From Psychroserpens burtonensis DSM 12212 (GTDB taxonomy: Bacteria; Bacteroidota; Bacteroidia; Flavobacteriales; Flavobacteriaceae), in contig NZ_AUDE01000019.1 in NCBI RefSeq assembly GCF_000425305.1, forward strand, positions 1 to 64,000: a DNA stretch of 64,000 nt, read 5' to 3'. The notes beneath the pieces were generated by a model. That model did no database searches, had not been told where the DNA came from, and was given only the letters and a program-made list of their open reading frames with translations. Of this stretch, positions 45,666 to 63,705 are shown in pieces (positions within the stretch are counted from its first letter, which is position 1; each line of letters begins with the position of its first letter). The translations under genes and the position numbers were made by a program.

Positions 45666-45686
45666 GATTTATCTAGTCCCTTTTTA

Positions 45687-46352: not shown

Positions 46353-46369
46353 AACAATTTTTATGTCAG

Positions 46370-46819: not shown

Positions 46820-46835
46820 AGTGTGATTTTTTATA

Positions 46836-46878: not shown

Positions 46879-46884
46879 TGATTA

Positions 46885-47340: not shown

Positions 47341-47377
47341 AATTTTAGAATTTTAATGTTATACTTTATTCATGTCA

Positions 47378-47420
47378 CTAAGTTACTAATTAAGCCTGCT
47401 TTTTAAAATGATAAATATCA
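47378..47420 (-). promoter_or_regulatory. Fnr-like site and promoter of hsp20
   Basis: TGATAAATATCA (47409-47420) is a TGAT-N4-ATCA palindrome. On the minus strand the -7 box TAACTTAG (47378-47385, 7/8) starts 35 nt after the first base of the site. Confidence 0.75.
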
Positions 47421-47437
47421 GTTTCGTAACGCATTAC

Positions 47438-48811
47438 TTAAACGATTACTTTTTCAACATCTGTTAGCTTTGGAATACTCACATGCCACCCATAAACATC
47501 CTTTATCTTTACTCTAAATGCATCTAGAGCTGTAGGTTCTCCGTGGACTAAATATACTTTTTCTGGTATGTTTTTAATGGTACTCATCCAATTTATTAAA
47601 TCCTTTTGATCTGCATGAGCCGATAAACTTTCAATGCTTTTAATTGTAGCGTTTACAGGATAATATTTTCCAAAGAAACGAATTTCGTGAGCACCATCTA
47701 GAAGTTGTCTTCCACGAGTCCCCTCAGCTTGATACCCAACTATCAGTACTGTAGTTGATGGCTCATCAATGAGCTGTTGCAAATAGGTAAGTACTCTCCC
47801 TCCGGTGACCATTCCACTTCCAGCAATAATTATTTTAGACCGTTTATCATCAATTGTTTCCCAAGTTTCTTTGTAGGATTGAATGATGTTAACATGGTTA
47901 CACATCGCATTATAATCCTCTATTGGGAGTTTATGCCATGCAGGAAACCTTTTAAAAACATCTAATACATTGTTGCCCATTGGACTATCAACAAATATTG
48001 GGATATTTGGAATTTTATTCTTTTTGTATAATTTCCATAGAATATACATGAGCGTTTGTAGTCGCTCAACAGCAAAACTCGGGATAATCAGGTTGCCCTT
48101 TTTATGTAGGGTTTCTATAATGATTTCAGTGAGAAAATCTTCAGTGTTGTCTGCTGGGTGCAATTTATTTCCGTAGGTGCTTTCTATAAACAAAAAATCA
48201 GCCCATTCAGGAGTTTTTGGATCCTTGAGGAGGTGGTCATCTTGTCGACCAATATCTCCCGAAAACACAAAACGCTTTCCGTTGATGTCAATTTCTATAA
48301 ATGTTGCACCAATAATATGACCATTATATTGAAAACGATAGGAGATATGCTCAGATAACAGAATCCATTTATCGTCTAATTCTAAATTAAATAATTTTAG
48401 GGTGCTCTCAGTATCTTTAATTGTATAAAATGGTAGAGCAGGAGTATGTTTGCTATATTTTTCTTTGTTTGCTTTATGGGCTTCTTCTTCATGAATTTTA
48501 GCACTATCCTCTAATATGATTTTTGCTATAGCCAAAGTAGGTGCTGTACCAATAATTTTTCCTGTAAACCCTTGTTGTATTAATCGAGGTAAGTAACCAA
48601 CGTGGTCTAAATGACCATGTGTTAATAAAACAACATCAATAGTTGAAACGTCTACAGGGAGATCGACCCAGTTAAGTTTTCTAAGCTCTTTTAGTCCTTG
48701 GAACATACCACAATCAATAAGTATGTTTTTTTCTGAAGTTTCGATAAGAAATTTGGAACCAGTGACAACTCCTGCGGCTCCTAAAAAATTAATTTTTACA
48801 AATTTTTCCAT
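47438..48811 (-). CDS. Beta-CASP metallo-beta-lactamase-fold ribonuclease-like protein
   Basis: 457 residues from ATG at 48811 (MEKFVKINFLGAAGVV); an upstream ATG at 48850 overlaps the previous gene and is less likely. MBL motifs: LTHGHLDHVGYLP (HxHxDH), FSGDIGRQDD, and a late SAHADQ. The beta-CASP insert includes PSFAVERLQTLMYIL, and the RMMBL end has VGYQAEGTRGRQLLDGA and YLVHGEP. Proteins of this layout (CPSF73/RNase J-like, YsgF type) are RNA nucleases. It is the third gene of a Usp-linked run and lies 98 bp upstream of hsp20. Confidence 0.92.
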   Translation of the reverse strand: MEKFVKINFLGAAGVVTGSKFLIETSEKNILIDCGMFQGLKELRKLNWVDLPVDVSTIDVVLLTHGHLDHVGYLPRLIQQGFTGKIIGTAPTLAIAKIILEDSAKIHEEEAHKANKEKYSKHTPALPFYTIKDTESTLKLFNLELDDKWILLSEHISYRFQYNGHIIGATFIEIDINGKRFVFSGDIGRQDDHLLKDPKTPEWADFLFIESTYGNKLHPADNTEDFLTEIIIETLHKKGNLIIPSFAVERLQTLMYILWKLYKKNKIPNIPIFVDSPMGNNVLDVFKRFPAWHKLPIEDYNAMCNHVNIIQSYKETWETIDDKRSKIIIAGSGMVTGGRVLTYLQQLIDEPSTTVLIVGYQAEGTRGRQLLDGAHEIRFFGKYYPVNATIKSIESLSAHADQKDLINWMSTIKNIPEKVYLVHGEPTALDAFRVKIKDVYGWHVSIPKLTDVEKVIV

Positions 48812-48824
48812 TTTGATTTTTTGT

Positions 48825-49664
48825 TTAGAGACATAGTTGTGAGATTTCATTTAGAATTTTTTCTTTTCTTGTTTCAGATACTCCTAAATGATCTAAGAAA
48901 AAACTATCATTTATTAATTCGCGACAGAGTACAATATCTCTACTTAATAAAAATTGCTTTTCTCTGTTTGTAAGTTGCGTGGAGACTGTTATTGGGTATA
49001 ATCCTAATCTATCAATTCTATCTTTTAGACCGCTATTTTTTGGGTGATCCCAGCTTAATAGATATAGACCACAGCAGTTGCCATATCGCAATGCATCCTT
49101 GGTAAACCTTGTATTAGTGACAACCCAACCTGGATTGAGTGTAGTTTCCTTTTTTGAACTTTGATACCAATTGTCTCTTACATCACGATACCGTGAGTTG
49201 ATATATAAAGGGATTTTGACATTACAATTTTGACCTTGGTCACTATGAAATTTACATTCAATTATAGTTGCTTCATAGTTTTTGAAGGCTATAACATCTA
49301 TTTCATGTGATACACACTTACCTTGTAAGGTGGTGCTAACTTGAGTCTTATATCCTGAAAAATTTAAAATAGCACTCACAAAACGTTCAAAAGGAAAGCC
49401 AGTAGGTCCTAACTCATATATTGCCTTTTTGAGTTTGTATTTTGAAGCGAGATGACTTTTGTTTTTTTTAAGTAAAGCGAACGCTCTGTTGTAAATCTCT
49501 TTAGTAGAAATGCCTTGATATAACTCATCACGAACTTTGTCTAAAATTTGATTAACAATAGTATCATCTGCTCCAGTTTTTTTTAAAGACGATCGTAATT
49601 TATCGAGTGAAAATTTTACTTTTTCACCAGAAGATTTAATGACTTCTATATTTTGAATTTCCAT
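48825..49664 (-). CDS. ATP-cone domain protein with restriction-endonuclease-like (PD-(D/E)xK) domain
   Basis: 279 residues. Residues about 3-90 form an ATP-cone (EVIKSSGEKVKFSLDKLRSSLKKTGA), the regulatory domain known from ribonucleotide reductases and NrdR. Residues about 93-200 match Mrr-like nucleases: FPFERFVSAILNFSGYKTQ, HEIDVIAFK and TIIECKFH supply the D...ExK metal site. A C-terminal helical region follows. ATP-dependent nuclease regulation is inferred. It precedes the beta-CASP gene by 13 bp, which suggests a nucleic-acid processing pair. Confidence 0.85.
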   Translation of the reverse strand: MEIQNIEVIKSSGEKVKFSLDKLRSSLKKTGADDTIVNQILDKVRDELYQGISTKEIYNRAFALLKKNKSHLASKYKLKKAIYELGPTGFPFERFVSAILNFSGYKTQVSTTLQGKCVSHEIDVIAFKNYEATIIECKFHSDQGQNCNVKIPLYINSRYRDVRDNWYQSSKKETTLNPGWVVTNTRFTKDALRYGNCCGLYLLSWDHPKNSGLKDRIDRLGLYPITVSTQLTNREKQFLLSRDIVLCRELINDSFFLDHLGVSETRKEKILNEISQLCL

Positions 49665-49742
49665 ACTATTGTTTTAAAAATGGCCATACCCAATACGGGT
49701 TTTGATAGTTTAACGTCACTAACTAATTAAACATGTAGAGCT

Positions 49743-50150
49743 TTAAAGCGACACAAAAAAGTCTTTTACCCAGGCCTTTACTTGATTATCTGTCATGCTA
49801 TCAGTCTTTCTTGTGCCTTTTATTTTGGTGCTCAAAAGTGTGTGATTTTGATGTAATTCCTCACTAAATTTTTTATTTGTTCCTGCAGGACCAAAAAGGA
49901 CTAATGCATCACTATCACTAATCTTGGCAATTATATTTTTAAAATACAGCTTTAGTTGTTGCTTTTCGCGTTCTAAATATTTACTGTCTTGTACAACGTC
50001 TTGTGGGCCCCCTTTTTGACGTGTTCCTGAACCGCCACGAATATTATAATGTTCTATGTTTGATGAAACAGTTTGAAGCGTTTCCTTGTCATTCTCAATA
50101 GTTACAATGAGTGCTTTGTCTTTGTCTAACCAGATGCCTGTTTTTTTCAT
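49743..50150 (-). CDS. Hypothetical protein with possible eRF1-like N-terminal fold
   Basis: 135 residues. It starts with KTGIWLDKDKALIVTIENDKETLQTV, a pattern of an acidic strand pair seen in bacterial release-factor-like (baeRF) proteins and other RNase-H-like small proteins, followed by a Gly/Arg-rich loop (IRGGSGTRQKGG) and ALVLFGPAGTNKKFSEEL. I am not certain of the family. It starts 12 bp after a universal stress protein and is very probably in the same operon. Confidence 0.68.
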   Translation of the reverse strand: MKKTGIWLDKDKALIVTIENDKETLQTVSSNIEHYNIRGGSGTRQKGGPQDVVQDSKYLEREKQQLKLYFKNIIAKISDSDALVLFGPAGTNKKFSEELHQNHTLLSTKIKGTRKTDSMTDNQVKAWVKDFFVSL

Positions 50151-50162
50151 TTTAAATATGTT

Positions 50163-51017
50163 TTAGTTTCTTAAATCGTGCATTACTAATAGGGGTATGT
50201 TTAAGTAAAATGTGATTTCCTTTACCAAAGTATTTGTAAGGATACTTCCAAAAAAAGTATGTTTTTTGTTTGTAAATGCAACCATATCACTGCCTCTACT
50301 TTCAACAAAAATATTAATGGAACTCATTATATTATTTTGGGACAAATCATGAAATTTATAATCGTTACCCTCTAAAATATCTTCAAGTAGTTGTTTGTTT
50401 TCTTTTTGAGTTTTATCTAACTCATGTTCTTCACGTATATGGAGAACAACAATGGAGGCATTACTTTTTTTAGTTATGTGTATCAAATAGTTCAACTCTC
50501 TTCTTTTATAATTGGTTTTATAATTAGTTGGAAAAACAATTTCTTTTGGTAATTTTATTTTTGCTTTTTGAGGTACAACGATCACAGGGCAATTACGTAC
50601 TTTCTCCATCACATATATAGCTGTACTTCCAAATGCTGTTGCTCTTGAATGTGTTTCGCCTTTTGTGCCCATTATAATCATTTCAATGTCCTTTTGATCT
50701 ACAGCATTTTTAATAGCTTCAATAGGGTCGTTAAAGACAGACATTGTTTTAAATTCATGTTTTGGATTTTCATATTCAGTCATAGCAATCATATCATACG
50801 TTTTTGCTAAGCCATTTTCTGAACTTAATTTTGCGGTTTCATATAATTCACTTCCAGGCTCCATTTTGAGTATGTTTTCCATAAAATTAATTGGAGATAA
50901 GAATACATTAAGTAAGTAGAAAATACAAGTGTCATTTTTGTATAACTCTATAGCATAATGCAAAGCATGGGTAGCATTCTTTGAGAAGTCTGTTGGGATT
51001 AAAATTTTATGTTTCAT
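50163..51017 (-). CDS. Tandem universal stress protein
   Basis: 284 residues, two UspA domains in tandem. The first (about 1-145) has the ATP-binding signature GTKGETHSRATAFGSTA; the second lacks it and ends in an NKKHTFFGS segment and IPLLVM. The start IPTDFSKNATHALHYA is typical. Usp proteins bind ATP or other nucleotides and accumulate in growth arrest. It opens a run followed by the 135-residue protein, ATP-cone nuclease and beta-CASP genes. I find no exact Fnr-like site in the 120 bp upstream. Confidence 0.92.
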   Translation of the reverse strand: MKHKILIPTDFSKNATHALHYAIELYKNDTCIFYLLNVFLSPINFMENILKMEPGSELYETAKLSSENGLAKTYDMIAMTEYENPKHEFKTMSVFNDPIEAIKNAVDQKDIEMIIMGTKGETHSRATAFGSTAIYVMEKVRNCPVIVVPQKAKIKLPKEIVFPTNYKTNYKRRELNYLIHITKKSNASIVVLHIREEHELDKTQKENKQLLEDILEGNDYKFHDLSQNNIMSSINIFVESRGSDMVAFTNKKHTFFGSILTNTLVKEITFYLNIPLLVMHDLRN

Positions 51018-51137
51018 AGTATTGGTCTTTAAGACTTAGTCTAATAATTGTCGCCTTGTGAGTACTTCGATTCTGTCAAGTTATAATGACCTTAGAGTGA
51101 GCTATATGGTGATTATTTGCTATTATTATTATTATTA

Positions 51138-52724
51138 TTATTTGAAATACTTTTTTATTACAGCAAGTAATTTGACTTTATTAAACGGTTTAGAAATATA
51201 ATCGTTACAGCCTGCCTTAATTACCTTTTCATTGTCACCGTTTAGAGCAAATCCTGTTTGCGCTATTATGATAACATCTTTATTGAATTTTCTAATTTGT
51301 CTACTTGCTTCATATCCATTTAAATCAGGCATTTGAATGTCCATGAGAATTAAATCAATGTCAGGATTATCACGACAAATATCTACAGCTTCTTTACCAG
51401 TAACCGCTTTAAGAATTACCGCACTGTGGTTTTTAACTATGGTAGACATAAGTATTCTCGATATTTCATCGTCATCTGCAATTAATACTTTTAGTTTCGA
51501 AGCTTCAGGTTCAACCGTTACGCCAGAATCTTCAAACCAATCTTCATTATTATCAACAAGTTTATCTTTAAATTTAGTACGATATGGCAGTGTGAAATAA
51601 AATATAGATCCTTTCCCTTCTTGGCTCTCCATCCAAATTTTTCCACCAAGCATTTCTGCGTATGCCCTAGAAATCGACAAGCCCAAACCTGCTCCTTGAT
51701 GTGCTTTTTTATTGGCAATATCAGCTTGTATAAAACGCTTGAAAATAGCTTTTTGCCTGTCTTTGGGTATCCCAATACCTGTGTCTTTTATTTGAAATTC
51801 TAGTTCTTTGGAGTCCTTTTCTCTTTTTAGTATATATCCCAATTCTATGGTGCCTTTGTTGGTGTATTTAATGGCGTTTTTAACAAGATTAGTGAGAATA
51901 GAATACAGTTTTTCACTATCTGTTTTAATAAAGGCTTCTTTGTTTGTTAAACCTTTTTTAATTTTAAAATGTATGCCTTTAGCCTCAACTTGAGGTTTAA
52001 AGAAGGTATAAATGAATTCTATTTGCTTGTTAATATTTGCTTGTTGGATATTAACTTCCATTAGTCCTGATTCTATTTTCGAAATATTAATAATATCATT
52101 AATAATATTAAGCATTCGTAATCCGCTTTTTTTGATGATTGTAATATATTTTTGTTGCTCATCTCCGGTGAGACCTGGTTCTTTTAATAAATCGGCAAAA
52201 CCGAGTATACCATTCATCGGCGTTCGTATTTCGTGACTCATATTAGCTAAAAAAGCTGATTTTAATTTGTCGCTTTCTTCCGCGTGATCTTTAGCAATTA
52301 TTAATTCATCGGCACGTTTTTGCTTTTCTTTATTTTGGAATAGCAGTTCTCTATTAGCAATTATTAATTCATCTGCCCGTTTTTGCTTTTCTTTATTTTG
52401 GAATAGCAGTTCTCTATTAGCAATTATTAATTCATCTGCCCGTTTTTGTTTTTCTTTATTTTGAAAGCGAAGTTCTTTATTGGCAATACCTAACTCTGCT
52501 GCTCGTTTCTCCTTTTCTTCATCTTGAAACCTAATTTGTAGATTTGCAATACCTAGCGTTGTTTCATATTCGTCCTTTTCTTTATCTTGAAATTCAATTT
52601 CTGTGTTGGCAATTATTAATTTATCTGAATGTGTTTCTACTAAAAGTCTTAAAGACTTATTCTCCTTAAGTAATTCCTGTAACTGCCTTATGAGTTCTTT
52701 TTTTGTTTGGTTTTGAATATTCAT
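51138..52724 (-). CDS. Soluble hybrid histidine kinase with coiled-coil repeat and receiver
   Basis: 528 residues without membrane segments or a PAS domain. Residues about 35-150 are a coiled coil of five 21-residue repeats (pattern ELxIANxELxFQNKEKQKRAD), equal to three heptads each. The kinase core follows: H-box MSHEIRTPMNG (about 164), N-box NAIKYTN, G-boxes DTGIGIPKD and GAGLGLSISR. The receiver (about 410-528) has ADDDE, phospho-Asp in LMDIQMPD, and Lys in ISKPFN. The input is unknown; the coiled coil may be the sensor or dimerisation rod. The gene ends in a TAT microsatellite (51121-51141). An Fnr-like site lies 91 bp upstream. Confidence 0.93.
   Translation of the reverse strand: MNIQNQTKKELIRQLQELLKENKSLRLLVETHSDKLIIANTEIEFQDKEKDEYETTLGIANLQIRFQDEEKEKRAAELGIANKELRFQNKEKQKRADELIIANRELLFQNKEKQKRADELIIANRELLFQNKEKQKRADELIIAKDHAEESDKLKSAFLANMSHEIRTPMNGILGFADLLKEPGLTGDEQQKYITIIKKSGLRMLNIINDIINISKIESGLMEVNIQQANINKQIEFIYTFFKPQVEAKGIHFKIKKGLTNKEAFIKTDSEKLYSILTNLVKNAIKYTNKGTIELGYILKREKDSKELEFQIKDTGIGIPKDRQKAIFKRFIQADIANKKAHQGAGLGLSISRAYAEMLGGKIWMESQEGKGSIFYFTLPYRTKFKDKLVDNNEDWFEDSGVTVEPEASKLKVLIADDDEISRILMSTIVKNHSAVILKAVTGKEAVDICRDNPDIDLILMDIQMPDLNGYEASRQIRKFNKDVIIIAQTGFALNGDNEKVIKAGCNDYISKPFNKVKLLAVIKKYFK
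52291..52632 (-). repeat. 63-bp tandem repeats encoding a coiled coil
   Basis: Units begin at 52291, 52354, 52417, 52480, 52543 and (partial) 52606, always 63 bp apart. The 52291 and 52354 units are identical at 61 of 63 positions, so recent slippage or unequal crossover is likely; older units are more diverged. Confidence 0.9.
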
Positions 52725-52783
52725 GCCTATTTTGTTTAATTTATGAAGTGCTCATACTTTGCAATAGGTAAAGCTCGTTTCTA

Positions 52784-52826
52784 TAAAATTAAGCCATCAA
52801 TATGTAGTTTAAAATGATATATATCA
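52784..52826 (-). promoter_or_regulatory. Fnr-like site and promoter of the hybrid kinase
   Basis: TGATATATATCA (52815-52826) lies 91 bp before the kinase ATG; the -7 box TAATTTTA (52784-52791, 7/8) starts 35 nt after the first base of the site. Confidence 0.72.
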
Positions 52827-52831
52827 TATTG

Positions 52832-53662
52832 TTATGCAGGAATCACTAAAAAAGGAATTAATGGATGAAAGCCAATTTTATGTATCACTGGTTCTTTCAC
52901 GATAGTCTCTATGAAACTGTGTTTGTAGTTAATCATAGCAAGAATGTTCACGTCTGCTGATTCGATAAAATCATTGATTTCAAGAGTCTTTTTTGCATAA
53001 TTAGGCATAAAATGAAAACTAGTATTATGATTTTTTAAATGGCTCTCTAATAAGGCCATATTATACTCTTGGATACCTGTGAGTTTTTCTTTAGAAAGAA
53101 TGCAAACAGGCATAATCTTAGAATCATAAAGTTCTGCCAGATCTCTTAAAGGGTCTAATTCCTTATAATCATAACAACGACTAAAATCTGTTGGAAATCC
53201 TATTTGTTTTGGTTCAACAAAATCAAACTCATCTGGTACAATTAGAACAGGACAGTGTCTTACTTTTTTAATAATTTTAACTGTATGACTTCCGAAGAAA
53301 AACTCTTTAGCTCCTGTTGCACCTTTTGTTCCCATAACAATGAGGTCTATGTTATGTTTGTTAACAGCAGTTTCTATGCCACTTTGGACGTCTTCAGAGC
53401 TCAATATAATTTCAAAATTATGGTTGGCATTTATATTGCTGTTTTCTGCCATGTCTTTTAGTTCTATGAGCTCTTTCATAGCGTTTTCTGCCATAACACG
53501 TATTAATTTATTAGACATAGTAGACATCGTTGAAACAACCATTTTTGATGCATGTAAAAAGTAAAATGTGCAGTATTCTTTTGAATATAATTTTAAAGCA
53601 TAAACTGCTGCACTCCAAGCGTTATCTGAAAAATCTGTTGGTAATAAGATGTTTTTTTTCAT
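52832..53662 (-). CDS. Tandem universal stress protein
   Basis: 276 residues, two Usp domains. N-terminal domain start LPTDFSDNAWSAAVYALKLY, ATP-binding GTKGATGAKEFFFGSHT at about 116-132. The C-terminal half has FPTDFSRCYD and an NYKHSF segment in place of the glycine-rich signature, ending in a hydrophobic IPFLVIP strand. Only a half-site resembling the Fnr-like motif is seen upstream, with TAAATTTA as a possible -7 box. It is one of five related Usp genes in this island. Confidence 0.93.
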   Translation of the reverse strand: MKKNILLPTDFSDNAWSAAVYALKLYSKEYCTFYFLHASKMVVSTMSTMSNKLIRVMAENAMKELIELKDMAENSNINANHNFEIILSSEDVQSGIETAVNKHNIDLIVMGTKGATGAKEFFFGSHTVKIIKKVRHCPVLIVPDEFDFVEPKQIGFPTDFSRCYDYKELDPLRDLAELYDSKIMPVCILSKEKLTGIQEYNMALLESHLKNHNTSFHFMPNYAKKTLEINDFIESADVNILAMINYKHSFIETIVKEPVIHKIGFHPLIPFLVIPA

Positions 53663-53738
53663 ATCTAAAAATATCTAAATTTACTTCGGAAACTAGCGTG
53701 TATTATGATAAGCTAAAAGAATGATAATACATATTGAA

Positions 53739-54584
53739 CTATATTTTCACAGGGAGTACTAAAAACGGAATGTTTAAATGAAACCCAATTTGATTCACCG
53801 TATTCCTAAAGAATAGATTTTCATAAAATGAATGTTTATTATTAATCATGGCTAGTAAATTGATTTTATGCTTCAATTGAAATTCACTAATGGCCTCTGT
53901 GATGTTCATACTTCTAACATCATGGAATAAAAAAGCAGTGTGTTCAAAAATGGATTCTAAATTTGATTTATTGTCTTTCTGCCTTTGCGTTAAATCATAA
54001 CCTGTAGAAATATGCATCGCGTTAATTCTAGAGTGATTTGTCGCAACTATTTCTTGTAAAATATTAAGTTGTGCGTTTTTATAGTGAACTTCTAAATCTG
54101 TTGGAAATAAGATTTCATGTGGTGCTTCATATTTGAAGTGGGATGGAATAGCTAGAATTGGGCATTTTATTTCTTTGAATACATGTACTGTATTTGATCC
54201 AAATAAGACTTCTTTTGCTCCAGTAGCTCCTTTGGTGCCCATGACTAGAAGATCAATATTGTACTTGATGGCAACCTCTTTAATGCCTAAAATCAAGGTG
54301 TCAAATCTAGCTATGGTTTCAAATTTATGCTTTGTATTATTTCCAAATTCACTAGAGATTTTATCAACCAACTCTTTTAAGTTTTTTTGTGACGTATTTC
54401 TAATGGCATCACCTAAACCAAATTGTGCAGGATATCCCATGACATACTCAACATGGTAAATGACAGGCGTATAGGTGTTCAGTATATAAAAGGTGCATGC
54501 TTCCTCTTTAAAGAGATGTAAGGCATAGCTAATAGCGTTCCAAGAATTCTCAGAAAAATCAGTGGGTAATAAAATATGTTTCAT
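53739..54584 (-). CDS. Tandem universal stress protein
   Basis: 281 residues, two Usp domains, close in pattern to the neighbouring Usp genes. The first has LPTDFSENSWNAISYALHLF and GTKGATGAKEVLFGSNT (about 118-134); the second has NNKHSFYENLFF instead of the glycine-rich signature and ends IPFLVLP. A degenerate Fnr-like sequence (54625-54636, TGAA-N4-ATCA on the minus strand) lies upstream, with only a weak -7 box at the right distance. Confidence 0.93.
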   Translation of the reverse strand: MKHILLPTDFSENSWNAISYALHLFKEEACTFYILNTYTPVIYHVEYVMGYPAQFGLGDAIRNTSQKNLKELVDKISSEFGNNTKHKFETIARFDTLILGIKEVAIKYNIDLLVMGTKGATGAKEVLFGSNTVHVFKEIKCPILAIPSHFKYEAPHEILFPTDLEVHYKNAQLNILQEIVATNHSRINAMHISTGYDLTQRQKDNKSNLESIFEHTAFLFHDVRSMNITEAISEFQLKHKINLLAMINNKHSFYENLFFRNTVNQIGFHLNIPFLVLPVKI

Positions 54585-54646
54585 CTGTTGATATGTATTT
54601 ATTGATTAGTAGCATTAATTGTAATGATTCATTTCATAATAAAATT

Positions 54647-55495: not shown

Positions 55496-56018
55496 AGTGA
55501 TCGTTTTTAATATTCACTAGTAAAATTAAATAGTTGACTATGTAAAAACTATGATATATATCAGATACAACTTTTTAGCAATCTTAGTGTTTTGAAGCTC
55601 ATGGTTGTCGCTAAAATGTTTGTAGATGGCTGCTTTTTTGAATGTAGTGTTATCGTTTGATCTTTGATTTATTACTTGGTTAAGCAGTAAATTAAATAAA
55701 AATGGAGCGCATCAGAGGGGAAACTGCAAGGCTTTATGAGTTGGTCATAATTAACAATAAATGAGAGACATTGTCGCTAGTTCGTTCTTTTTATTTTAGC
55801 TGTTATTTAGGATTTATGGCTAATTCGTAAATTGCTGTGGGAGCATAGGTATTAAGATAATAGTGTAATAAATGCCCCAATTATAGTACCTTTAATAATG
55901 TCGATGGACTATGTTTTTAAATTGGCTTGAGTGAGTAATACTGCAATATGCTGAATTTTCGATTTGAGCAATAATTAAACGTTTTGCTTTAGACTATTTT
56001 TTTTCAAAAATTAATATG
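55496..56018. other. Intergenic region with one regulatory site
   Basis: The left end carries the Usp promoter and its Fnr-like site (55521-55563). I see nothing in 55570-56018: no ORF, no hairpin with a T run, no repeat. Confidence 0.5.
55521..55563 (-). promoter_or_regulatory. Fnr-like site and promoter of a Usp gene
   Basis: TGATATATATCA (55552-55563); -7 box TAATTTTA (55521-55528, 7/8) starts 35 nt after the first base of the site, and the Usp ATG is at 55495. Confidence 0.78.
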
Positions 56019-56288
56019 TTATTCCACTTCGTTTTTTGCCTTTTTGTATTTAGTATGTTCTACTTTTTTCTTTTCTAAAATAGCATAAAATTTACGAGGT
56101 GAGATTCTTAAGTCTTTTGTTATTTCACTTACTTTTTTCTTACTTTTTTTATAAAGTTTAAGATTTTCATTCACTTCTTTATTGAAGTAATACTCTTTCA
56201 GTTGATCAATAATTTGTAATTCTGTTACATTAGATTCTCTTGCGTAAGTTTCTAATTCTGACTTGATTTTGGATAAACTATTTTTCAT
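56019..56288 (-). CDS. Small basic helical protein, possible DNA-binding
   Basis: 89 residues, rich in Lys and Glu, all helical. The middle section KKSKKKVSEITKDLRISPRKFYAILEKKK looks like a helix-turn-helix (ITKDLRISPRKFYAIL), which suggests DNA or RNA binding, but I cannot name a family. The Fnr-like promoter at 56494-56536 reads toward it across a structured 200-nt leader containing the 56-bp palindrome. It may therefore be a leader-controlled member of the regulon. Confidence 0.72.
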   Translation of the reverse strand: MKNSLSKIKSELETYARESNVTELQIIDQLKEYYFNKEVNENLKLYKKSKKKVSEITKDLRISPRKFYAILEKKKVEHTKYKKAKNEVE

Positions 56289-56385
56289 AATTTTTGTTTT
56301 TAGGGTTTTGCGTCAATGAATGGGAAATTTATAGTATGCACATTGTTTTGGATGTAAAATACGTATTTTGGATTAGTTTTAGGGC

Positions 56386-56441
56386 CTATTAATTTTAAAG
56401 GAATCCAAATATTAATATTTGGATTCCTTTAAAATTAATAG
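56386..56441. repeat. Perfect 56-bp palindrome
   Basis: 28-bp arms meet without a spacer at 56413/56414 and show no mismatch. The core is GGAATCCAAATATTAATATTTGGATTCC. It lies between an Fnr-like promoter (56494-56536) and the small helical protein gene. RNA from either strand would form a long hairpin; the flanking T run is short, so it is a weak terminator at best. Confidence 0.95.
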
Positions 56442-56489
56442 TAAATAAATTGTTAAGAATCCCCATTCTTACTGTCATCGTTTGATGAC
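56386..56489 (-). ncRNA. Candidate structured small RNA or leader
   Basis: The predicted minus-strand start is about 56489, 5 nt after the -7 box. The RNA would begin with the hairpin GTCATC-AAAC-GATGAC (56474-56489) and then contain the palindrome. It could end there as a roughly 100-nt RNA or continue into the gene at 56288. Confidence 0.4.
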
Positions 56490-56493
56490 TTAA

Positions 56494-56536
56494 TAAATTT
56501 AATAAACTGTGAATTAAAATTAACTGATATATATCA
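56494..56536 (-). promoter_or_regulatory. Fnr-like site and promoter of the palindrome leader
   Basis: TGATATATATCA (56525-56536) sits in the larger palindrome AACTGATATATATCAGTT. On the minus strand the -7 box TAAATTTA (56494-56501, 7/8) starts 35 nt after the first base of the site. On the plus strand no -7 box is found at that distance. Confidence 0.72.
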
Positions 56537-56647
56537 GTTGGGTTATTATTTGTTTTAACTAGTTAGTATCGCCTTAGTTATTTCCTAAGCGTTTGGTTTG
56601 CTAAAAGGACTTAAAATCTATATGAGCATGTTCTTTGGTTATAAAAT

Positions 56648-57034
56648 TTATATAGTAATGATATCATAAACCACATTAAGTAAAAAGAGGCCTACCAGGA
56701 ATAATAAAGTGTAAGCCACTTGTACCAGTTTAATATTGGTGATTTCTAACCAAGCTACAGTTTTTTTTGGAAATATAAATAACACTAACCCAAGATATAG
56801 TGATGACCAACCTATTAGGGTAATAATAAGTTTATAGCTTGGTTCCCAAACATTATGAAACAAAATATTTAGCAGTCCAATAATGATAGCTAGAAAAGAA
56901 AAAAGGATTAAGAATTTTTCATCTTTAAGGTCATTAAATATTTGTTTTATACGTTTTGGGTTAAAGCTTAATATTAAAAAGAAAATAATAAGATACCAGC
57001 CCCAAAACTTTGCTAAAAAAATTGATTGATTCAT
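56648..57034 (-). CDS. Small four-helix membrane protein
   Basis: 128 residues with four hydrophobic segments (about 8-25, 43-60, 68-87, 100-124) and basic loops (NPKRIKQIFNDLKDEK). No catalytic motif is visible and I do not recognise the family. It starts 12 bp after the Usp gene at 57047, so it is cotranscribed with that Usp from its Fnr-like promoter. A function in the membrane under stress is inferred only from position. Confidence 0.75.
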   Translation of the reverse strand: MNQSIFLAKFWGWYLIIFFLILSFNPKRIKQIFNDLKDEKFLILFSFLAIIIGLLNILFHNVWEPSYKLIITLIGWSSLYLGLVLFIFPKKTVAWLEITNIKLVQVAYTLLFLVGLFLLNVVYDIITI

Positions 57035-57046
57035 AATTACTGTTTT

Positions 57047-57889
57047 TTATTCGTGTAATACTAAAAAAGGAATGTGTGTGTGATATGTTATTTTTTCAAC
57101 TCTAGTATGAAATAACATGTTTTGAAAATAATTAAGATTTTTGGCAACCATAACAATCATATCAACACCTTTGCTTTCTACAAAGCATTGTATGGCATTT
57201 TCTACATTTTTATTGGTAAGAAAATGAAAACTCGGCATAAAATCTTCGAAATAATCATTCAATACATCTTTGTTTGTGAGCTGCTCAGTATTTAGTTTGG
57301 TGTCTTTTTTATGAATATGAATAATTCTTAAATTAGCTTTAACCATACTTAAAATAGCTGTAAATGGTTGAAGTATTTTTATATCATAAGATAAGTTGTA
57401 ATCTGTTGGAAATGCAATTTCTTTTAGTTTATCATATTTTGCATGTTCTGGAACAACTAAAGTGGTACATTTTACTTTGGTAACAACATCGCCTGCATTG
57501 CTTCCAATGATATATTCTTCAAATCCTGAGGCACCTTTTGTACCCATTATTATCATATCAATTTTTTTATCATTAATATGCTTTCTAATAGACTCGACAA
57601 AAAAACTATAATCAACTATAGTATAAAATTTATGCTTTTTGTTATGCTCAAGGTGGTCGCTAATTTTTTTTAATAGAGATCTTAATTTTTTCTTGGAGGG
57701 TTTAACATAAGTGTCTTCTATAGCTTCTTGAGTAGGTATATAAATAGCATCTCCAACGATAATATTTTCTACTTTATTGATGTGAAGTACATAAAAATTA
57801 CAAGTTGTGTTTTTAAATAAGGCGAGAGCATACACAATAGCATTCCATGAGTTATCAGAAAAATCTGTTGGTAATAAAATATTCATCAT
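57047..57889 (-). CDS. Tandem universal stress protein
   Basis: 280 residues from ATG at 57889; a second ATG follows at once. Two Usp domains: LPTDFSDNSWNAIVYALALF and GTKGASGFEEYIIGSNA (about 117-133) in the first; the second has FPTDYNLSYD and a divergent end (VAKNLNYFQNMLF). It carries the strongest promoter of the set: TGACGAATATCA (one mismatch) with a perfect TAGATTTG box 35 nt on. It lies directly downstream of the receiver-cNMP-HTH gene. Confidence 0.93.
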   Translation of the reverse strand: MMNILLPTDFSDNSWNAIVYALALFKNTTCNFYVLHINKVENIIVGDAIYIPTQEAIEDTYVKPSKKKLRSLLKKISDHLEHNKKHKFYTIVDYSFFVESIRKHINDKKIDMIIMGTKGASGFEEYIIGSNAGDVVTKVKCTTLVVPEHAKYDKLKEIAFPTDYNLSYDIKILQPFTAILSMVKANLRIIHIHKKDTKLNTEQLTNKDVLNDYFEDFMPSFHFLTNKNVENAIQCFVESKGVDMIVMVAKNLNYFQNMLFHTRVEKITYHTHIPFLVLHE

Positions 57890-57908
57890 TTAAATTTCTT
57901 ATTCTAAA

Positions 57909-57951
57909 CAAATCTAAATGTAAGGGTCATAAAAACATATGATATTCGTCA
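57909..57951 (-). promoter_or_regulatory. Fnr-like site and promoter of a Usp-membrane protein operon
   Basis: TGATATTCGTCA (57940-57951, 7/8 of TGAT-N4-ATCA). The -7 box TAGATTTG (57909-57916, 8/8) starts 35 nt after the first base of the site on the minus strand. Confidence 0.75.
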
Positions 57952-57974
57952 TATTAGAAAACAATATGGAGCAC

Positions 57975-59027
57975 CTAGGAAATATCTTGTAATTTTTGAA
58001 TATCGAGGACTTTGATGTTTCTGCCTTCTAGTTCTATAAGGCCTTGTTTTTTAAAATCTGAGATCGTTCTAATTAATGTTTCAGTGGCTATTCCAGCAAC
58101 ACTAGCTAAATCATTTCTAGAGATTTTAATAGAATCTTCTGGGTTGGAATTGATTTTTTCAGCAAACCTTAGAATGGTAGAAGCGGTTTTCTTTTGTACA
58201 GAACTGTACGCCATTTGCAAAAGTTGATCTTTAACACCTGTGAGGTCATCAGTGAGTAGTTGAATCACTTCTAAAGTTACTTTATGGTTGTTATTCAACA
58301 CCTCTTTTAGCTCTGCTTTAGAAACACCTACCATTTCTAAATCCTTGATTGCTTTAGCAGTTTCCCTGTAAGGGATGTTTTGTGTAAAGGATGTATAACC
58401 AAATAGGTCATCCTCTTTATGAAGTGCTGTAGTGAGTTCTTTTCCTTTTTCGTCAAATTTATAGCACTTTACAGCACCTTTAATTATTAAATAGATGGTG
58501 TTAGAATTATGGCCTTCTTTGTAGATGGTTTCATTTTTATTGTAATTAAAAATTTTGCCATAATCATCAAAGAAATTTTTTAAATCATTTAATGTTCTTA
58601 TGTCATCTTCAGTATTAGAAGGGGCGTTTTTAAAGGAGTTTCGCTCATCTTTTAAGATAGATGCTTTGGCAATTCGACTTTCAATAGCGCTAATAATTTC
58701 ATCTTCGTTAAAAGGTTTTGTAATATAATCGTCAGCACCTAAATCCATGCCTTTTCTTACGTCTTGTCGTTCTGTTTTTGCAGATAGAAATATAAAAGGA
58801 ATAAACTTTGTTTCATCTTGTTTAGACAAACCTTCGAGCACACCGTAGCCATCAAGAATTGGCATCATGATATCACAAATAATAATATCGGGTTTATGCT
58901 TTGTAGCCATTTCTAGCCCTATTTGACCATTACTAGCCGTTAGTGTTTCATAATTGGAAAGTTCTAAAAGCTCAGCAGTATTTTCTCTTAATACACTATC
59001 ATCCTCTATTATTAGTACTCTTTTCAT
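57975..59027 (-). CDS. Response regulator fused to cNMP-binding and Crp/Fnr-type HTH domains
   Basis: 350 residues. Receiver (about 1-120) with EDD near the N-terminus, phospho-Asp in IICDIMMP (about 53), and Lys in ITKPFN. A cNMP-binding barrel (about 148-265, YNKNETIYKEGHNSNTIYLIIKGAVKCYKFDEKG) and a Crp HTH (about 280-350, SRNDLASVAGIATETLIRTISDFKKQG) follow. The recognition helix keeps the Glu and Arg that contact TGA in Crp/Fnr (E-T-L-I-R against E-T-I-S-R in Fnr). No Fnr-type Cys cluster is present, so oxygen sensing must be indirect. The PAS kinase gene precedes it. It is the best candidate to bind the TGAT-N4-ATCA sites nearby. Confidence 0.93.
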   Translation of the reverse strand: MKRVLIIEDDSVLRENTAELLELSNYETLTASNGQIGLEMATKHKPDIIICDIMMPILDGYGVLEGLSKQDETKFIPFIFLSAKTERQDVRKGMDLGADDYITKPFNEDEIISAIESRIAKASILKDERNSFKNAPSNTEDDIRTLNDLKNFFDDYGKIFNYNKNETIYKEGHNSNTIYLIIKGAVKCYKFDEKGKELTTALHKEDDLFGYTSFTQNIPYRETAKAIKDLEMVGVSKAELKEVLNNNHKVTLEVIQLLTDDLTGVKDQLLQMAYSSVQKKTASTILRFAEKINSNPEDSIKISRNDLASVAGIATETLIRTISDFKKQGLIELEGRNIKVLDIQKLQDIS

Positions 59028-59113
59028 ATGTTTATATATATTGTTTTTTAAGGCTCACATGCTGTTCGCTATGCATAATTCCCTTGAGTGATAACGTTTT
59101 TAGCATCCTCGTT

Positions 59114-60619
59114 TCATAGTTGTGCTTTGTTTGGAAGTTCTATAGTGAAAGTTGAACCTTCATATTGTTTACTTACAAATGTAATGGTGCCGTTTAAGTT
59201 TTCTAAATGATCTTTAACGATGTTTAAACCAATTCCTGTGCCTTGCAATAGCAAAGCATTTTCTGCTCTAAAATAACGATTAAATATATTTTTTTGATCC
59301 TGTTGTGGAATACCAATTCCGTTATCTGTTATTTTCAAAATAGTACTATTTTCATTTTGTGAAATATCAATATCTATGATTGTATTTTCAGAGGAATATT
59401 TAATAGCGTTGTATATAAGATTAGATAAGGCTAATTCTAAAATCTTTTCATCTTGGTATAAGGAGATTTCGTCTATGTTTTCGGGATAGTTGATTTGCTG
59501 GCCATCCTTTAGTAACATATTTGCATTGTAGATGACTTCATTTAAAACTTTACTCAATTTAAAGGTGGTAAAATTATAATTGATTTTACCTTTTTCAAGT
59601 TTTTCTACGGAAAGAAAATCATTCAGAATTTTATTTAGATATTGTACTTTATCTGTAATGGTTTTTATGTGTTTTTCTCGTTTAGTTTGTTGCTCAGTTA
59701 ATTTGTATTTATTTAATAATATAGTCGACGTCAAAATGCCACTAAGCGGAGTTTTAAATTCATGGGATACCATTGATAAGAACTTCGTTTTTAAGTCATT
59801 GAGTTCTTTTTCTGCAGATAGAGCTGTTTGTAATTCTTCAGTTCTTAAAGATACCGTTTTCTCTAGTTTTTCTGTATAGTTTTTCTGTTCTGTAATATCT
59901 AGGATAATTGCTAAAAACACATCTCTATCACCCAATTTAGAACGCTGTAGATGAACACTTACTGGATAGATGGTCCCAGATTTTCGTTTATGGACAGTTT
60001 CAAATTCAATTTTGTCAAGATTATCTTGGCTTAATATTTCAATTTCTTTTCTAAACTTTGATTCAGTATAGTCTGGTTTTATGTCTAAAGGTGTCATAGT
60101 TTTTAGTTCTTCTAAACTATATCCTATATTATTTTGGGCACCATGATTAGCATTTATAAATTTTAAGGTTTTAGTATCAAAAACATAAATTTCATTTAAA
60201 GATTCTAGAAAAATCTTAGCTAAATGATTTTTTTCTTGTTCTAATTTTTTTCGCTCAGTAATATCAATAACTAATGCCATTATGTAATTTCTACCATAAA
60301 TGGTAAAGGGATTTAAACTGGCCTCAATTGGAAAAATACTGCCATTTTTTTTTGCGCCAAAAATATCGCGTCCATGTCCCATGCGACGTTGTTTATGCTC
60401 TTTGACAAACCCTTTAAAGTGGTCGCCATGTTTTGCATGATAATTTTGCGGGATTAAAATATTAAGTGGTTGCTTATTGAGCTCATTACTATTGTAGCCA
60501 AACATTGCTTCTGCAGAGGTGTTGGCTTCAACAATAATTTGATGTTCATTAACGACTACGACGCCCTCTGAAACGGAATCTAAAAGGATATTAAAAACAT
60601 CTTGATCTTGCTTGAACAT
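59114..60619 (-). CDS. Soluble PAS-domain histidine kinase
   Basis: 501 residues without membrane segments. Two PAS domains (about 5-120 and 130-245), each ending in DITERKK or DITEQKN; the first has the FixL-like stretch RRMGHGRDIFGAKKNGSIFPIE, but at the place of the FixL haem His I read Arg, so haem binding is uncertain. A coiled linker leads to the H-box MVSHEFKTPLSG (about 290), N-box NLIYNAIKYSS, and G-boxes DNGIGIPQQ and GTGIGLNIVKDHL. It lies 86 bp upstream of the receiver-cNMP-HTH gene and probably phosphorylates it. Confidence 0.92.
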   Translation of the reverse strand: MFKQDQDVFNILLDSVSEGVVVVNEHQIIVEANTSAEAMFGYNSNELNKQPLNILIPQNYHAKHGDHFKGFVKEHKQRRMGHGRDIFGAKKNGSIFPIEASLNPFTIYGRNYIMALVIDITERKKLEQEKNHLAKIFLESLNEIYVFDTKTLKFINANHGAQNNIGYSLEELKTMTPLDIKPDYTESKFRKEIEILSQDNLDKIEFETVHKRKSGTIYPVSVHLQRSKLGDRDVFLAIILDITEQKNYTEKLEKTVSLRTEELQTALSAEKELNDLKTKFLSMVSHEFKTPLSGILTSTILLNKYKLTEQQTKREKHIKTITDKVQYLNKILNDFLSVEKLEKGKINYNFTTFKLSKVLNEVIYNANMLLKDGQQINYPENIDEISLYQDEKILELALSNLIYNAIKYSSENTIIDIDISQNENSTILKITDNGIGIPQQDQKNIFNRYFRAENALLLQGTGIGLNIVKDHLENLNGTITFVSKQYEGSTFTIELPNKAQL

Positions 60620-61013
60620 TTTGTTGAGGTTGGATTAAAGAAATTTAAAGATAACTAATCCTATTTAATAATTGTAGCTACTCTGTTAAGTTTTAATGTG
60701 TCATTCTAACTGATCTATGCTCTTCTTCAAGGTGCCTATGAAGATTATTTAAATTATAAAAATATAGCGATTTGAAAGTTATTGAAATTTTGTGGAATAT
60801 TAAAATCAATATAAAGGATATAGTCCATGAAGCTGCAAAACATTCTAATGGTATGAAGTGGGAATGTATTTAGGATTCAAGTTTGTGCAAAGGATACTCA
60901 ATTTGTTAGTAAAAACTAATGTGATTTTTTAGTAGTTAAAAATTGAAATGTCAAATATGCTATTATAAATCTTTCTTAGATAATAGCTTTGAAATGTTTT
61001 ATAATATGAGTGC
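60620..61013. other. Intergenic region upstream of the PAS kinase
   Basis: A possible kinase -7 box (TATCTTTA on the minus strand) lies near 60640-60650. One plus-strand open stretch (about 60765-60870) reads SDLKVIEILWNIKINIKDIV without a start codon; I do not consider it a gene. No other signal. Confidence 0.45.
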
Positions 61014-61451
61014 TCAGGCAGCAATACTATTTATAAATTGTTCAAACTTTTGGATTATTAATTTTTCATCTAGTTCCTCTAAATTATAAGTGCCTAAATG
61101 TTCTTCTACAGTCTCGTTTTCTATCTCGTGTGTTGCAGTGAACAAAATACGTATAGATATATTGTAAAGGCTGTTTTGTGAGAAAACAAGGGAGTAACTG
61201 GTCTTGTTGAGGCCTACATTTAAGGTATGTAGTGTGTCTAAGGGATGAGGTCTTAAGACTTGAAATGCAATATTGATATACCCTTTAGGATCTAACCATT
61301 TAAGTACTTGCATTTGACTACCCAGGCTGTGTTTTTCAAAACTATGACTAAGCATAGTTCTTATGAAATTCACTTTTTTAGAAGATGCATATTTGCTAAT
61401 AATTTTGTTGTCTAGATTTAGATAAACGCCATAATTTTTATTTTTTGCCAT
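61014..61451 (-). CDS. Hypothetical protein of the Fnr-like regulon
   Basis: 145 residues, mixed alpha/beta, with no signal peptide or membrane segment and only Lys-rich termini (MAKNKNYGVYLNLDNKII). It ends with a helical IIQKFEQFINSI. I recognise no family. It is transcribed divergently from the TerB-like operon, and both promoters share one Fnr-like site placed 51 bp from each start codon. Confidence 0.72.
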   Translation of the reverse strand: MAKNKNYGVYLNLDNKIISKYASSKKVNFIRTMLSHSFEKHSLGSQMQVLKWLDPKGYINIAFQVLRPHPLDTLHTLNVGLNKTSYSLVFSQNSLYNISIRILFTATHEIENETVEEHLGTYNLEELDEKLIIQKFEQFINSIAA

Positions 61452-61470
61452 GATTTTCGATATTTAGGGC

Positions 61471-61544
61471 TAAAATTATTACATGTATTATAATTCCCAC
61501 ATGATAAATATCATATGCGATTTTTATCAAAGCAGTTAAATTTG
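61471..61544. promoter_or_regulatory. Shared divergent Fnr-like site with two promoters
   Basis: TGATAAATATCA at 61502-61513. Leftward -7 box TAATTTTA (61471-61478, 7/8) and rightward TAAATTTG (61537-61544, 8/8) each start 35 nt after the first base of the site as read on their strand. Both start codons are 51 bp from the site. Confidence 0.82.
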
Positions 61545-61563
61545 AATCTTAAATGGTAATATC

Positions 61564-61974
61564 ATGGTAACTAAAAAGAAAATGACACTTACATTTTATC
61601 AGAATCTTGGTAAATTATTTTATGCTATTGCAGCTTCTGATGGTAGCGTTAAATCCATAGAGTTTGATAAATTAAAGGCGTTTGTAAAAAAACAGTGGTT
61701 AGAAATGGATGCCATTGAAGATTTCTTTGGCACTGATGCTGCATATCAAATAGAAGTTGTTTTTGATTGGTTAAATCGTGATGAAGAACCTGATATTAAA
61801 TTATGTTATGAAGATTTTATAAGTTATAAGAAAGAGCAAAGTCACTTATTTACTGAAGATGTAAGGCATTTAATTTTAAAAACAGCCTCTTCTATTGCAC
61901 ACGCATTTTCCGGAATCAATAAATCAGAATTGATCATGCTTGCAAAACTAGATATAGAATTAAAAAAATATTAA
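61564..61974 (+). CDS. TerB-like helical protein
   Basis: 136 residues. YQNLGKLFYAIAASDGSVKSIEFDKLKAFV has the pattern of the TerB/DjlA-like helical domain (an A-A-DG-x-v...E motif) found in tellurite-resistance and stress proteins; here the domain is followed by an acidic, less conserved half. A metal-binding role in the TerB family is known, but its function here is not. An ATG 18 bp on is an alternative start. It is the first gene of the TerB-DUF302-thioredoxin operon. Confidence 0.78.
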   Translation: MVTKKKMTLTFYQNLGKLFYAIAASDGSVKSIEFDKLKAFVKKQWLEMDAIEDFFGTDAAYQIEVVFDWLNRDEEPDIKLCYEDFISYKKEQSHLFTEDVRHLILKTASSIAHAFSGINKSELIMLAKLDIELKKY

Positions 61975-61976
61975 CT

Positions 61977-62375
61977 ATGAATTATTATTTTACTAAGATC
62001 GTAAAAGGGCCATTTGATGCTGTGGAAAATAGAGTAGTAGCACTATTAAAAAATGAAGGGTTTGGGGTGCTTACACAAATTGACATACAAACAACTTTAA
62101 ATAGTAAACTACAAGTTGACTTTAAAAAGTATAAAATATTAGGTGCCTGTAATCCATCATTTGCATATAAAGCATTACAGGTAGAGGATAAGATCGGGAC
62201 TATGTTACCTTGTAATATTATTATACAAGAGCAATCCCCTAACAGCATTGAAGTCTCTGCAATAAACCCTTTAGTATCCATGCAGGAAGTAAAAAATGAT
62301 GCACTAAATAATCTAGCACACGAAGTCAGTGCAAAACTTGAAAAGGTTATAAAAAGTATAGAAAATGAAAAGTAG
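61977..62375 (+). CDS. DUF302 domain protein
   Basis: 132 residues. The DUF302 signature is clear: FDAVENRVVALLKNEGFGVLTQIDIQTTLNSKL, then ILGACNPSFAYKALQVEDKIGTMLPCNIII. The conserved Cys residues in GACNP and LLPCN (LPCN here) are present. The family appears in stress and sulfur-related operons, but its activity is not known. It begins 2 bp after the TerB-like gene and overlaps the thioredoxin gene by 11 bp. Confidence 0.92.
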   Translation: MNYYFTKIVKGPFDAVENRVVALLKNEGFGVLTQIDIQTTLNSKLQVDFKKYKILGACNPSFAYKALQVEDKIGTMLPCNIIIQEQSPNSIEVSAINPLVSMQEVKNDALNNLAHEVSAKLEKVIKSIENEK

Positions 62376-62664
62376 TTTTAATGATATCATACAGTCTGAA
62401 ATCCCTGTTTTAGTAGATTTTTTTGCTGATTGGTGTGGACCATGTAAAATGTTGGCGCCAGTTTTAAAACAGGTAAAAGAAGAACTTGGAGATGCAGTAA
62501 AAATTATAAAGATTGATGTTGATAAAAATCAACCGTTAGCAGCCAAGTACCAAGTGCGTGGAGTTCCAACTATGCTTTTATTTAAAAATGGTGCTCAGGT
62601 ATGGCGACAATCTGGGGTGCTTCAAAAAAATGAGATTATAGAAATTATAAAATCAAATCACTAG
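62365..62664 (+). CDS. trxA: Thioredoxin
   Basis: 99 residues with the classical active site DWCGPCKMLAP (about 21-31) and the cis-Pro loop RGVPTMLLF (about 65-73). There is no signal peptide, so it is cytoplasmic. It ends the operon and provides a reductant under the Fnr-like control of the divergent promoter. The start overlaps DUF302 by 11 bp, indicating coupled translation. Confidence 0.96.
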   Translation: MKSSFNDIIQSEIPVLVDFFADWCGPCKMLAPVLKQVKEELGDAVKIIKIDVDKNQPLAAKYQVRGVPTMLLFKNGAQVWRQSGVLQKNEIIEIIKSNH

Positions 62665-62851
62665 GGTAGTGAGCGTAGCTATAGAAGTATAAAAGAAGCC
62701 ATTCTAAAATGATTTTGTTGTCTTGAGATTGTCTAAGTACTAAGTATATTGCCGAGATGTTTTTAGAAAACCGGGTATGTTATAAAGATGTTTGGTTATA
62801 AAGAGTCTGCAATTGAAAAGAGTATTTGTTTAAGGCATAGCAATACCGTGA

Positions 62852-62959
62852 GCACTAATATATGGTCATGAATTGATGAACGCATATGGTTTTAAAACTA
62901 AAAATGGAGATTATCCAACAACTGCAAGTTTTGAATTATTGAAGCAAGTAGTACTCTAA
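62852..62959 (+). pseudogene. Possible gene fragment
   Basis: An open frame after a stop reads ALIYGHELMNAYGFKTKNGD and continues PTTASFELLKQVVL to a stop, with no suitable start codon (35 codons). Its amino-acid pattern looks coding, but I know no matching family. The call is weak. Confidence 0.25.
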
Positions 62960-63010
62960 TCAATCAATACAATTTATTTGTTTTATTTGATTTAGAGTTT
63001 TAGCAGCCCA

Positions 63011-63053
63011 TGATGAATATCATTTTATAAAAAGGTGCACAATGCTAATTTTG
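63011..63053 (+). promoter_or_regulatory. Fnr-like site and promoter of the WG-repeat gene
   Basis: TGATGAATATCA (63011-63022) with the -7 box TAATTTTG (63046-63053, 8/8) starting 35 nt after its first base. The ATG is at 63081. Confidence 0.82.
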
Positions 63054-63080
63054 ACAGATCACTCTTAAAATTTTAAAATC

Positions 63081-63695: not shown

Positions 63696-63705
63696 TACTA
63701 TAAAA

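Follow-up and report, generated by a model that had tools for sequence, protein, structure and literature searches.

A fixed-spacing Crp/Fnr-type promoter and a candidate FixL-like kinase/REC-Crp switch in a stress-gene cluster of Psychroserpens burtonensis

A cluster of stress genes in Psychroserpens burtonensis DSM 12212 is examined here, together with the promoter element shared by its transcription units and the genes that may control it. The window, i.e. the whole stretch of 64,000 nucleotides that was analysed, makes up the initial 64 kb of contig 14 in a genome of 3.98 Mb and 68 contigs, and its G+C content is 33%. The element, called the composite below, has the pattern TGAT-N4-ATCA-N23-TAnnTTTR, a twofold site of the Crp/Fnr type followed at a fixed distance by a −7 box. 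Six exact copies and two with one mismatch were found in the window, all of them at 44-64 kb and none at 0-44 kb. The promoters, the two putative regulatory genes and one target gene to which we will return are the following.

47378-47420, minus strand: hsp20 promoter, site TGATATTTATCA (47409-47420), box TAACTTAG (47378-47385, one mismatch); hsp20 is at 46885-47340
52784-52826, minus strand: hybrid histidine kinase promoter, site TGATATATATCA, box TAATTTTA; gene at 51138-52724
55521-55563, minus strand: Usp promoter, site TGATATATATCA, box TAATTTTA; gene at 54647-55495
56494-56536, minus strand: promoter of a structured, non-coding RNA (leader or small RNA), site TGATATATATCA, box TAAATTTA
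57909-57951, minus strand: Usp promoter, site TGACGAATATCA (one mismatch), perfect box TAGATTTG; gene at 57047-57889
57975-59027, minus strand: response regulator with REC, cNMP_binding and HTH_Crp domains (REC-Crp), candidate activator
59114-60619, minus strand: PAS-PAS-HisKA-HATPase kinase, whose first PAS domain matches the heme PAS of FixL and DosP
61471-61513, minus strand: promoter of a hypothetical gene (61014-61451), the shared 61502 site read leftward, box TAATTTTA
61502-61544, plus strand: TerB-like, DUF302 and thioredoxin promoter, the shared site read rightward, perfect box TAAATTTG
61564-61974, plus strand: TerB-like protein, target
63011-63053, plus strand: promoter of a WG-repeat gene (63081-63695, then an M50 peptidase beyond the window), site TGATGAATATCA, perfect box TAATTTTG

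The initial annotation had described six exact TGAT-N4-ATCA sites and one at 57940 with a single mismatch, each box starting 35 nt past the first base of its site. All of these sites were found, the distance holds in eight of eight cases, and the boxes had been counted correctly as three perfect TAnnTTTG sequences (57940 minus, 61502 plus and 63011 plus) and five with one mismatch (47409, 52815, 55552, 56525 and 61502, all minus). Among its gene names, those of Hsp20, the hybrid kinase, Usp, DUF302, the WG repeat, thioredoxin and the M50 (S2P-type) peptidase, which has a CBS domain and lies just past the window end, were upheld. TerB was not, there being no Pfam match at E 0.001, and this name is by resemblance only. 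The same annotation had overlooked that the cluster itself contains genes for a likely regulator and a FixL-like kinase.

The site alone is already overrepresented, with ten exact copies in the window against 2.19 expected, a number reached in 0 of 100 shuffles. For four of the ten (2033, 18718, 30574 and 62520, the last within the thioredoxin open reading frame, ORF), neither strand carries a −7 box at the required distance. For the composite, 200 dinucleotide shuffles of the window in 4-kb blocks yielded no exact copy at all (mean 0.0, maximum 0) and a mean of 0.45 (maximum 2) when up to one mismatch was allowed. The P. burtonensis genome contains 13 composites, 9 of them on contig 14, against 0 for the control, which was the same pattern read backwards. 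When the spacing is left free between 8 and 38, 38 matches are obtained, of which 13 fall exactly at 23; the reversed control gives 21, and the matches at other spacings are therefore background. The geometry noted initially is thus confirmed, and chance does not account for it.

Two larger samples were considered, namely a set of 38 loci, consisting of the window and of 20-kb stretches around the REC-Crp gene in 37 relatives (778 kb in total, the relatives being picked, mostly by similarity, from 66 genomes with REC-Crp), and a family sample of 149 Flavobacteriaceae genomes. The 38 loci hold 79 exact composites at spacing 23, as compared with a mean of 1.0 and a maximum of 4 for 30 other spacings, and the 149 genomes hold 782 matches as compared with 36 for the control. 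A start codon follows less than 60 nt past the box in 68 of the 79, at a median of 22 nt. For the 13 composites of P. burtonensis this distance is 5-59 nt, with the exception of the structured leader (205 nt). When the composites of three further P. burtonensis stretches are added, giving 83 in all, six lie within called ORFs; the ORFs come from a simple caller that makes start-site errors, and at least some of the six are such errors. The idea that Crp/Fnr-type sites stand here before real promoters, and are conserved across the family, is borne out by these numbers.

Over the 38 loci, the site consensus widens to [CA]TGAT-WWWT-ATCAT, and the base preceding TGAT is C or A in 77 of the 83 sites and T in five. 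No base is conserved at composite positions 19-35 in these loci, and no separate −33 element was seen between the site and the −7 box. According to PMC9723704, the TAnnTTTG box of Flavobacterium psychrophilum spans −12 to −5, and with this register the site falls at −47 to −36, with its centre at −41.5. A twofold site centred at −41.5 with a sigma box at a fixed distance, as in class II promoters, is thus what is found, and the class-II activator position assigned initially is supported, given that the F. psychrophilum register applies. Judging from the sequence, the eight window sites are almost certainly class II Crp/Fnr promoters.

We now consider the REC-Crp protein, which combines FixJ-like and FixK-like parts in one chain. 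REC, cNMP_binding and HTH_Crp_2 each score above the Pfam cut-off, while the NCBIfam equivalog cut-offs are not reached for FixK (77.6 of 300 bits), CRP (74.8 of 266) or Fnr (69.3 of 228). It is not a FixJ, its output being cNMP_binding plus HTH_Crp_2 instead of a LuxR/GerE-type helix-turn-helix, nor, on the CRP score, a cAMP-dependent CRP, and its cysteines, only at positions 51 and 188, do not form the N-terminal cluster of the FNR type. In FNR, the residues E209, S212 and R213 make the DNA contacts. The equivalents of E209 and R213 are invariant in all 38 aligned REC-Crp proteins, and S212 is replaced by Ile in 37 of them and by Thr in the other; the change to Ile fits sites with an outer base C or A instead of T. 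Invariant residues of the receiver include D9, D52 and K104. REC-Crp is likely to be a direct activator of the cluster.

Turning to the kinase, a comparison of its first PAS domain with solved structures by sequence gives FixL as the top match (E 5e-13), with DosP also found and the best 14 all heme PAS domains by title. An AlphaFold model of the domain has a mean predicted local distance difference test score (pLDDT) of 84.7, and ranks 1-19 of the fold search with this model are FixL, DosP or FG214 heme PAS domains. In FixL, the proximal heme His is His200 and the distal Arg is Arg220; of the 38 kinases, 37 have His at the first of these positions. The window kinase carries the equivalents of both, together with the kinase domains, and on the combined sequence and model evidence it is likely to be a heme oxygen sensor. 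For the kinase family as a whole this assignment is not secure; a subgroup of 626-630 aa (L106-L109) is without the Arg, and L109 is also without the His.

The kinase gene adjoins the REC-Crp gene in 38 of 38 loci. Among the 37 relatives, a Usp gene lies at most two genes from REC-Crp in 34, and a TerB-like gene and hsp20 occur in 21 and 12 of the stretches, respectively. REC-Crp itself is present, at E <= 1e-70, in 66 of the 149 family genomes, the nearest named relatives being Winogradskyella psychrotolerans genomes with 84, 80 and 77% identity, and at E <= 1e-60 in 43 of 296 genomes of the phylum, under nine family labels. The TerB-like target is found in 46 family genomes, 45 of which have REC-Crp (Fisher p 1e-20). 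The sole genome without full-length REC-Crp among them, G059, has a match of only 54 residues; near it, on contig 1 at ~2394000-2398600, composites precede HemN and Usp genes, and the region may be what is left of a lost cluster. G045, the only genome of the same genus that was drawn, has neither full-length REC-Crp nor a TerB-like match. It contains a solo Crp protein and a single composite, which precedes a short membrane protein resembling, by eye, the one behind the L003 composite of P. burtonensis.

The promoter is also used more widely. The cbb3 cluster of P. burtonensis consists of COX1-FixO, FixP_N, FixG_C, an E1-E2 ATPase and FixS, with a composite before FixS. A solo cNMP_binding-HTH_Crp protein (L115:10376-11179) lies beside cbb3 oxidase genes. 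It has a CxxC near its N-terminus and further Cys, Fnr scores best among its NCBIfam models (75 bits against a cut-off of 228), and all seven aligned solo proteins have the recognition residues E, I and R, as in REC-Crp. In seven genomes without REC-Crp, the genes behind composites include, among the matches listed, HemN and copper nitrite reductase, both reaching the NCBIfam equivalog level, and also an S30AE ribosome-hibernation-type protein, a FixS-like protein (a label given by eye in L230), Rrf2 and Usp; a cytochrome c behind a composite in such genomes may be NorC. With FixS, HemN, nitrite reductase and Usp among these targets, the stress/dormancy regulon proposed initially cannot be called dedicated, and the composites before HemN, nitrite reductase and Usp in the absence of REC-Crp mean that the promoter grammar belongs to an FNR-type factor in general. 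By analogy with Caulobacterales, where FixK has been proposed to bind existing FnrN sites (PMC4999443), REC-Crp most likely joined an existing grammar of this type. As to the S30AE protein, a composite precedes its gene in L216 (G062), and similar starts were seen by eye in L117 and L120; with S30AE behind composites, the regulon would be linked to a shut-down of translation.

The mechanism that we favour, with a probability of roughly 0.62, is that the FixL-like kinase acts through REC-Crp to bring about class II activation of the cluster at low oxygen, with the sites shared with the solo FNR-like factor. In this scheme the first PAS domain of the kinase would probably be a FixL-type heme oxygen sensor, and the kinase would phosphorylate the neighbouring REC-Crp and thereby switch it on. 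Bound to [CA]TGAT-N4-ATCAT, centred at −41.5, a dimer whose recognition helix is FNR-like would then recruit the polymerase with the Bacteroidota primary sigma factor to the TAnnTTT[GA] −7 box. Low oxygen would turn on Usp, Hsp20, the TerB/DUF302/thioredoxin genes, the second hybrid kinase and the small structured RNA, and the solo factor (L115:10376-11179) probably shares the sites, having the same DNA-contact residues. The rhizobial FixL > FixJ > FixK cascade would in this way be shortened to one step, because the receiver and the Crp/Fnr output are one protein. We consider oxygen somewhat better than an even bet as the main signal. The geometry, its conservation, the domain make-up and the co-occurrence are observed, while binding of DNA by REC-Crp, its phosphorylation, the heme and the oxygen signal are inferred.

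A number of observations weigh against this scheme and have to be considered along with the alternatives. The solo FNR-like regulator could be the main binder, with REC-Crp only modulating or using another site. The Fnr-like features of the solo protein, namely its recognition residues, its cysteines and its best NCBIfam model, speak for this, as do the targets behind composites without REC-Crp (FixS, HemN, copper nitrite reductase and Usp). Of the 83 family genomes that lack REC-Crp, 58 carry composites, 23 of them five or more and with a maximum of 18; Usp genes lie behind composites in such genomes (L220, L228 and L235), and a solo FNR could therefore be enough. Outside the family, the 27 REC-Crp genomes hold 52 composites (mean 1.9, with none in five), and the 16 same-class genomes without REC-Crp that were compared hold 19 (mean 1.2). 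Autoregulation of the kinase-regulator operon, as a general feature, was rejected, a composite with at most one mismatch being present within 250 nt upstream in only one of 38 kinase genes. On the other hand, both the TerB-like target and the composite numbers track REC-Crp within the family; the mean is 8.2 composites with it and 2.9 without (p 1e-12), or 8.4 and 3.6 when genomes below ~2.5 Mb are dropped (p 3e-9), although these means ignore relatedness and this cut is the only size control. G045, with its solo Crp protein, also has just the one composite and no TerB-like gene. A leading role of the solo protein is judged unlikely.

The other alternative concerns the signal, in that the kinase might sense another cue (nitric oxide, redox, light by flavin, or an internal one) and that the programme would then serve stress in general and not low oxygen in particular. 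At the Arg220 position, 27 of the 38 kinases have Arg and 11 do not, the position of FixL I215 is mostly polar in the 38, and LOV (flavin) proteins follow from rank 20 of the fold search with similar E-values. Usp, Hsp20 and thioredoxin are, moreover, general stress genes, and nitrite reductase and the possible NorC are among the relatives' composite targets. The leading fold and sequence matches (the first 19 and best 14) are, however, heme PAS domains by title, the heme His is almost always retained, and the promoter is common to FixS and HemN, which places this option on the unlikely side. Finally, coincidence in a low-complexity, AT-rich window was considered. The palindrome is itself AT-rich, and five of the ten window sites have TATATA-like cores, but the shuffled window, the reversed genome pattern and the count over the 149 genomes refute this explanation, and its probability is negligible.

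The promoter at 56525 has as its nearest ORF one of 89 aa, beginning 205 nt past the box. The following hairpin and hairpin-bearing units were found.

56386-56441, minus strand: perfect 26-bp hairpin of the RNA transcribed from the 56525 promoter, minimum free energy −54.5, z −8.3, 0 of 200 shuffles
56288-56536, minus strand, in the window, and L112:11482, L147:8365, L149:3304, L180:8533, L185:3845 and L188:4096: composites without a close ORF and with strong hairpins

There is no Rfam match for the structured leader at the gathering threshold in 45000-64000 of the window. A repeated element was rejected, the hairpin having a single occurrence in the P. burtonensis genome, where it is its own reverse complement. 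A composite followed by non-coding sequence with a terminator-like hairpin was found, by eye or by scan, in L112, L147, L149, L151, L180, L185 and L188 (the hairpin scan matching in L112, L149 and L151), and L180, L185 and L188 have in common a conserved stretch of ~300 nt with 91% mean column identity. In the window and L112, and probably in L147, L180, L185 and L188, the regulator and Usp genes are located shortly upstream of the unit. We regard the transcript as a candidate FnrS-like small RNA.

Some further neighbours of the cluster are worth recording. Genes of CcoI and CcoNO length occur in 6 of the 37 relatives' stretches (L094, L095, L102, L103, L104 and L125), and for L094 a fused COX1-FixO protein was confirmed by Pfam. 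A pair of genes in the window is also of note.

47438-49664, minus strand: beta-CASP ribonuclease-like gene (47438-48850) and ATP-cone/Mrr-like gene (48825-49664), together in 15 of the 37 relatives' loci

The best NCBIfam model for the beta-CASP protein is the type VII CRISPR Cas14 (E 2e-118; 396 bits, under the cut-off of 800), with aCPSF1 second; PADLOC matches for a defence-system reading of the pair are weak (E 1e-5 or worse), and this reading was set aside. Elsewhere on contig 14, L113:7000-7632 (71001-71633) encodes another small cNMP_binding-HTH_Crp protein, with a spacing-22 composite upstream that is divergent from a spacing-23 composite, and at L114:8090-8872 an MlaE permease (lipid transport) gene begins 19 nt past a composite. 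MlaE-like starts behind composites were also seen by eye in several relatives.

It is useful to compare the present system with known ones. FNR/ANR class II promoters have TTGAT-N4-ATCAA at −41.5, with the same core, the same centre and the same recognition-helix Glu and Arg. They differ in that here C or A stands before TGAT, Ile replaces Ser212, REC-Crp is without the cysteine cluster, and a Bacteroidota −7 box is used with no −35 element. The DosR regulon of mycobacteria is a low-oxygen system of Usp and small heat shock proteins (sHsp). The TTGAT-N4-ATCAA consensus is given in PMC9104464, as is the lxa locus of Burkholderia cenocepacia, a low-oxygen Usp/sHsp locus, and the sHsp of Rhizobium leguminosarum is FnrN-dependent according to PMC11784457. 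These three resemble our cluster in placing Usp and sHsp genes under an oxygen-type regulator, and differ in regulator and phylum; TerB-like, beta-CASP and ATP-cone genes are unnamed in the lxa and FnrN-sHsp passages compared. The alphaproteobacterial FixLJ-FixK cascade has a heme-PAS-like kinase, a Crp/Fnr output and cbb3 oxidase, hemN and stress-gene targets in common with it, and coexists with Fe-S FNR types sharing its sites (PMC4999443), as is probably the case here. There, however, FixJ and FixK are separate, whereas the flavobacterial receiver and Crp/Fnr output form one chain, the site is without the outer T of TTGAT, and the −7 box is that of Bacteroidota. Primary-sigma promoters of F. 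psychrophilum have the same TAnnTTTG box at −12 to −5, and in this organism genes for the cbb3 oxidase and for heme are induced when oxygen is limiting; FNR and CRP are not mentioned in the main text of PMC9723704. No description of a REC-Crp regulator or of the composite in Bacteroidota was found in the open-access literature, which is weak evidence of absence since subscription papers are mostly uncovered.

In its widest form, the proposal is a one-step Bacteroidota oxygen switch, in which a FixL-like heme kinase would act without intermediates on a Crp/Fnr transcription factor by phosphorylating the receiver built into it. The switch would have its own altered [CA]TGAT site and a base-fixed class II grammar, and in many Flavobacteriaceae it would run a Usp/Hsp20/TerB survival programme and a small RNA of low oxygen that is conserved in synteny. 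We put this forward tentatively, at slightly less than even odds. With a promoter rule that is exact (the site, then 23 nt, then the box), FNR-type regulons can be read from raw Flavobacteriaceae genomes, and a candidate sensor and regulator can now be named for stress genes that, as a cluster, were otherwise uncharacterised. It also becomes testable whether, in Bacteroidota, a single protein has come to combine the FixJ and FixK steps.

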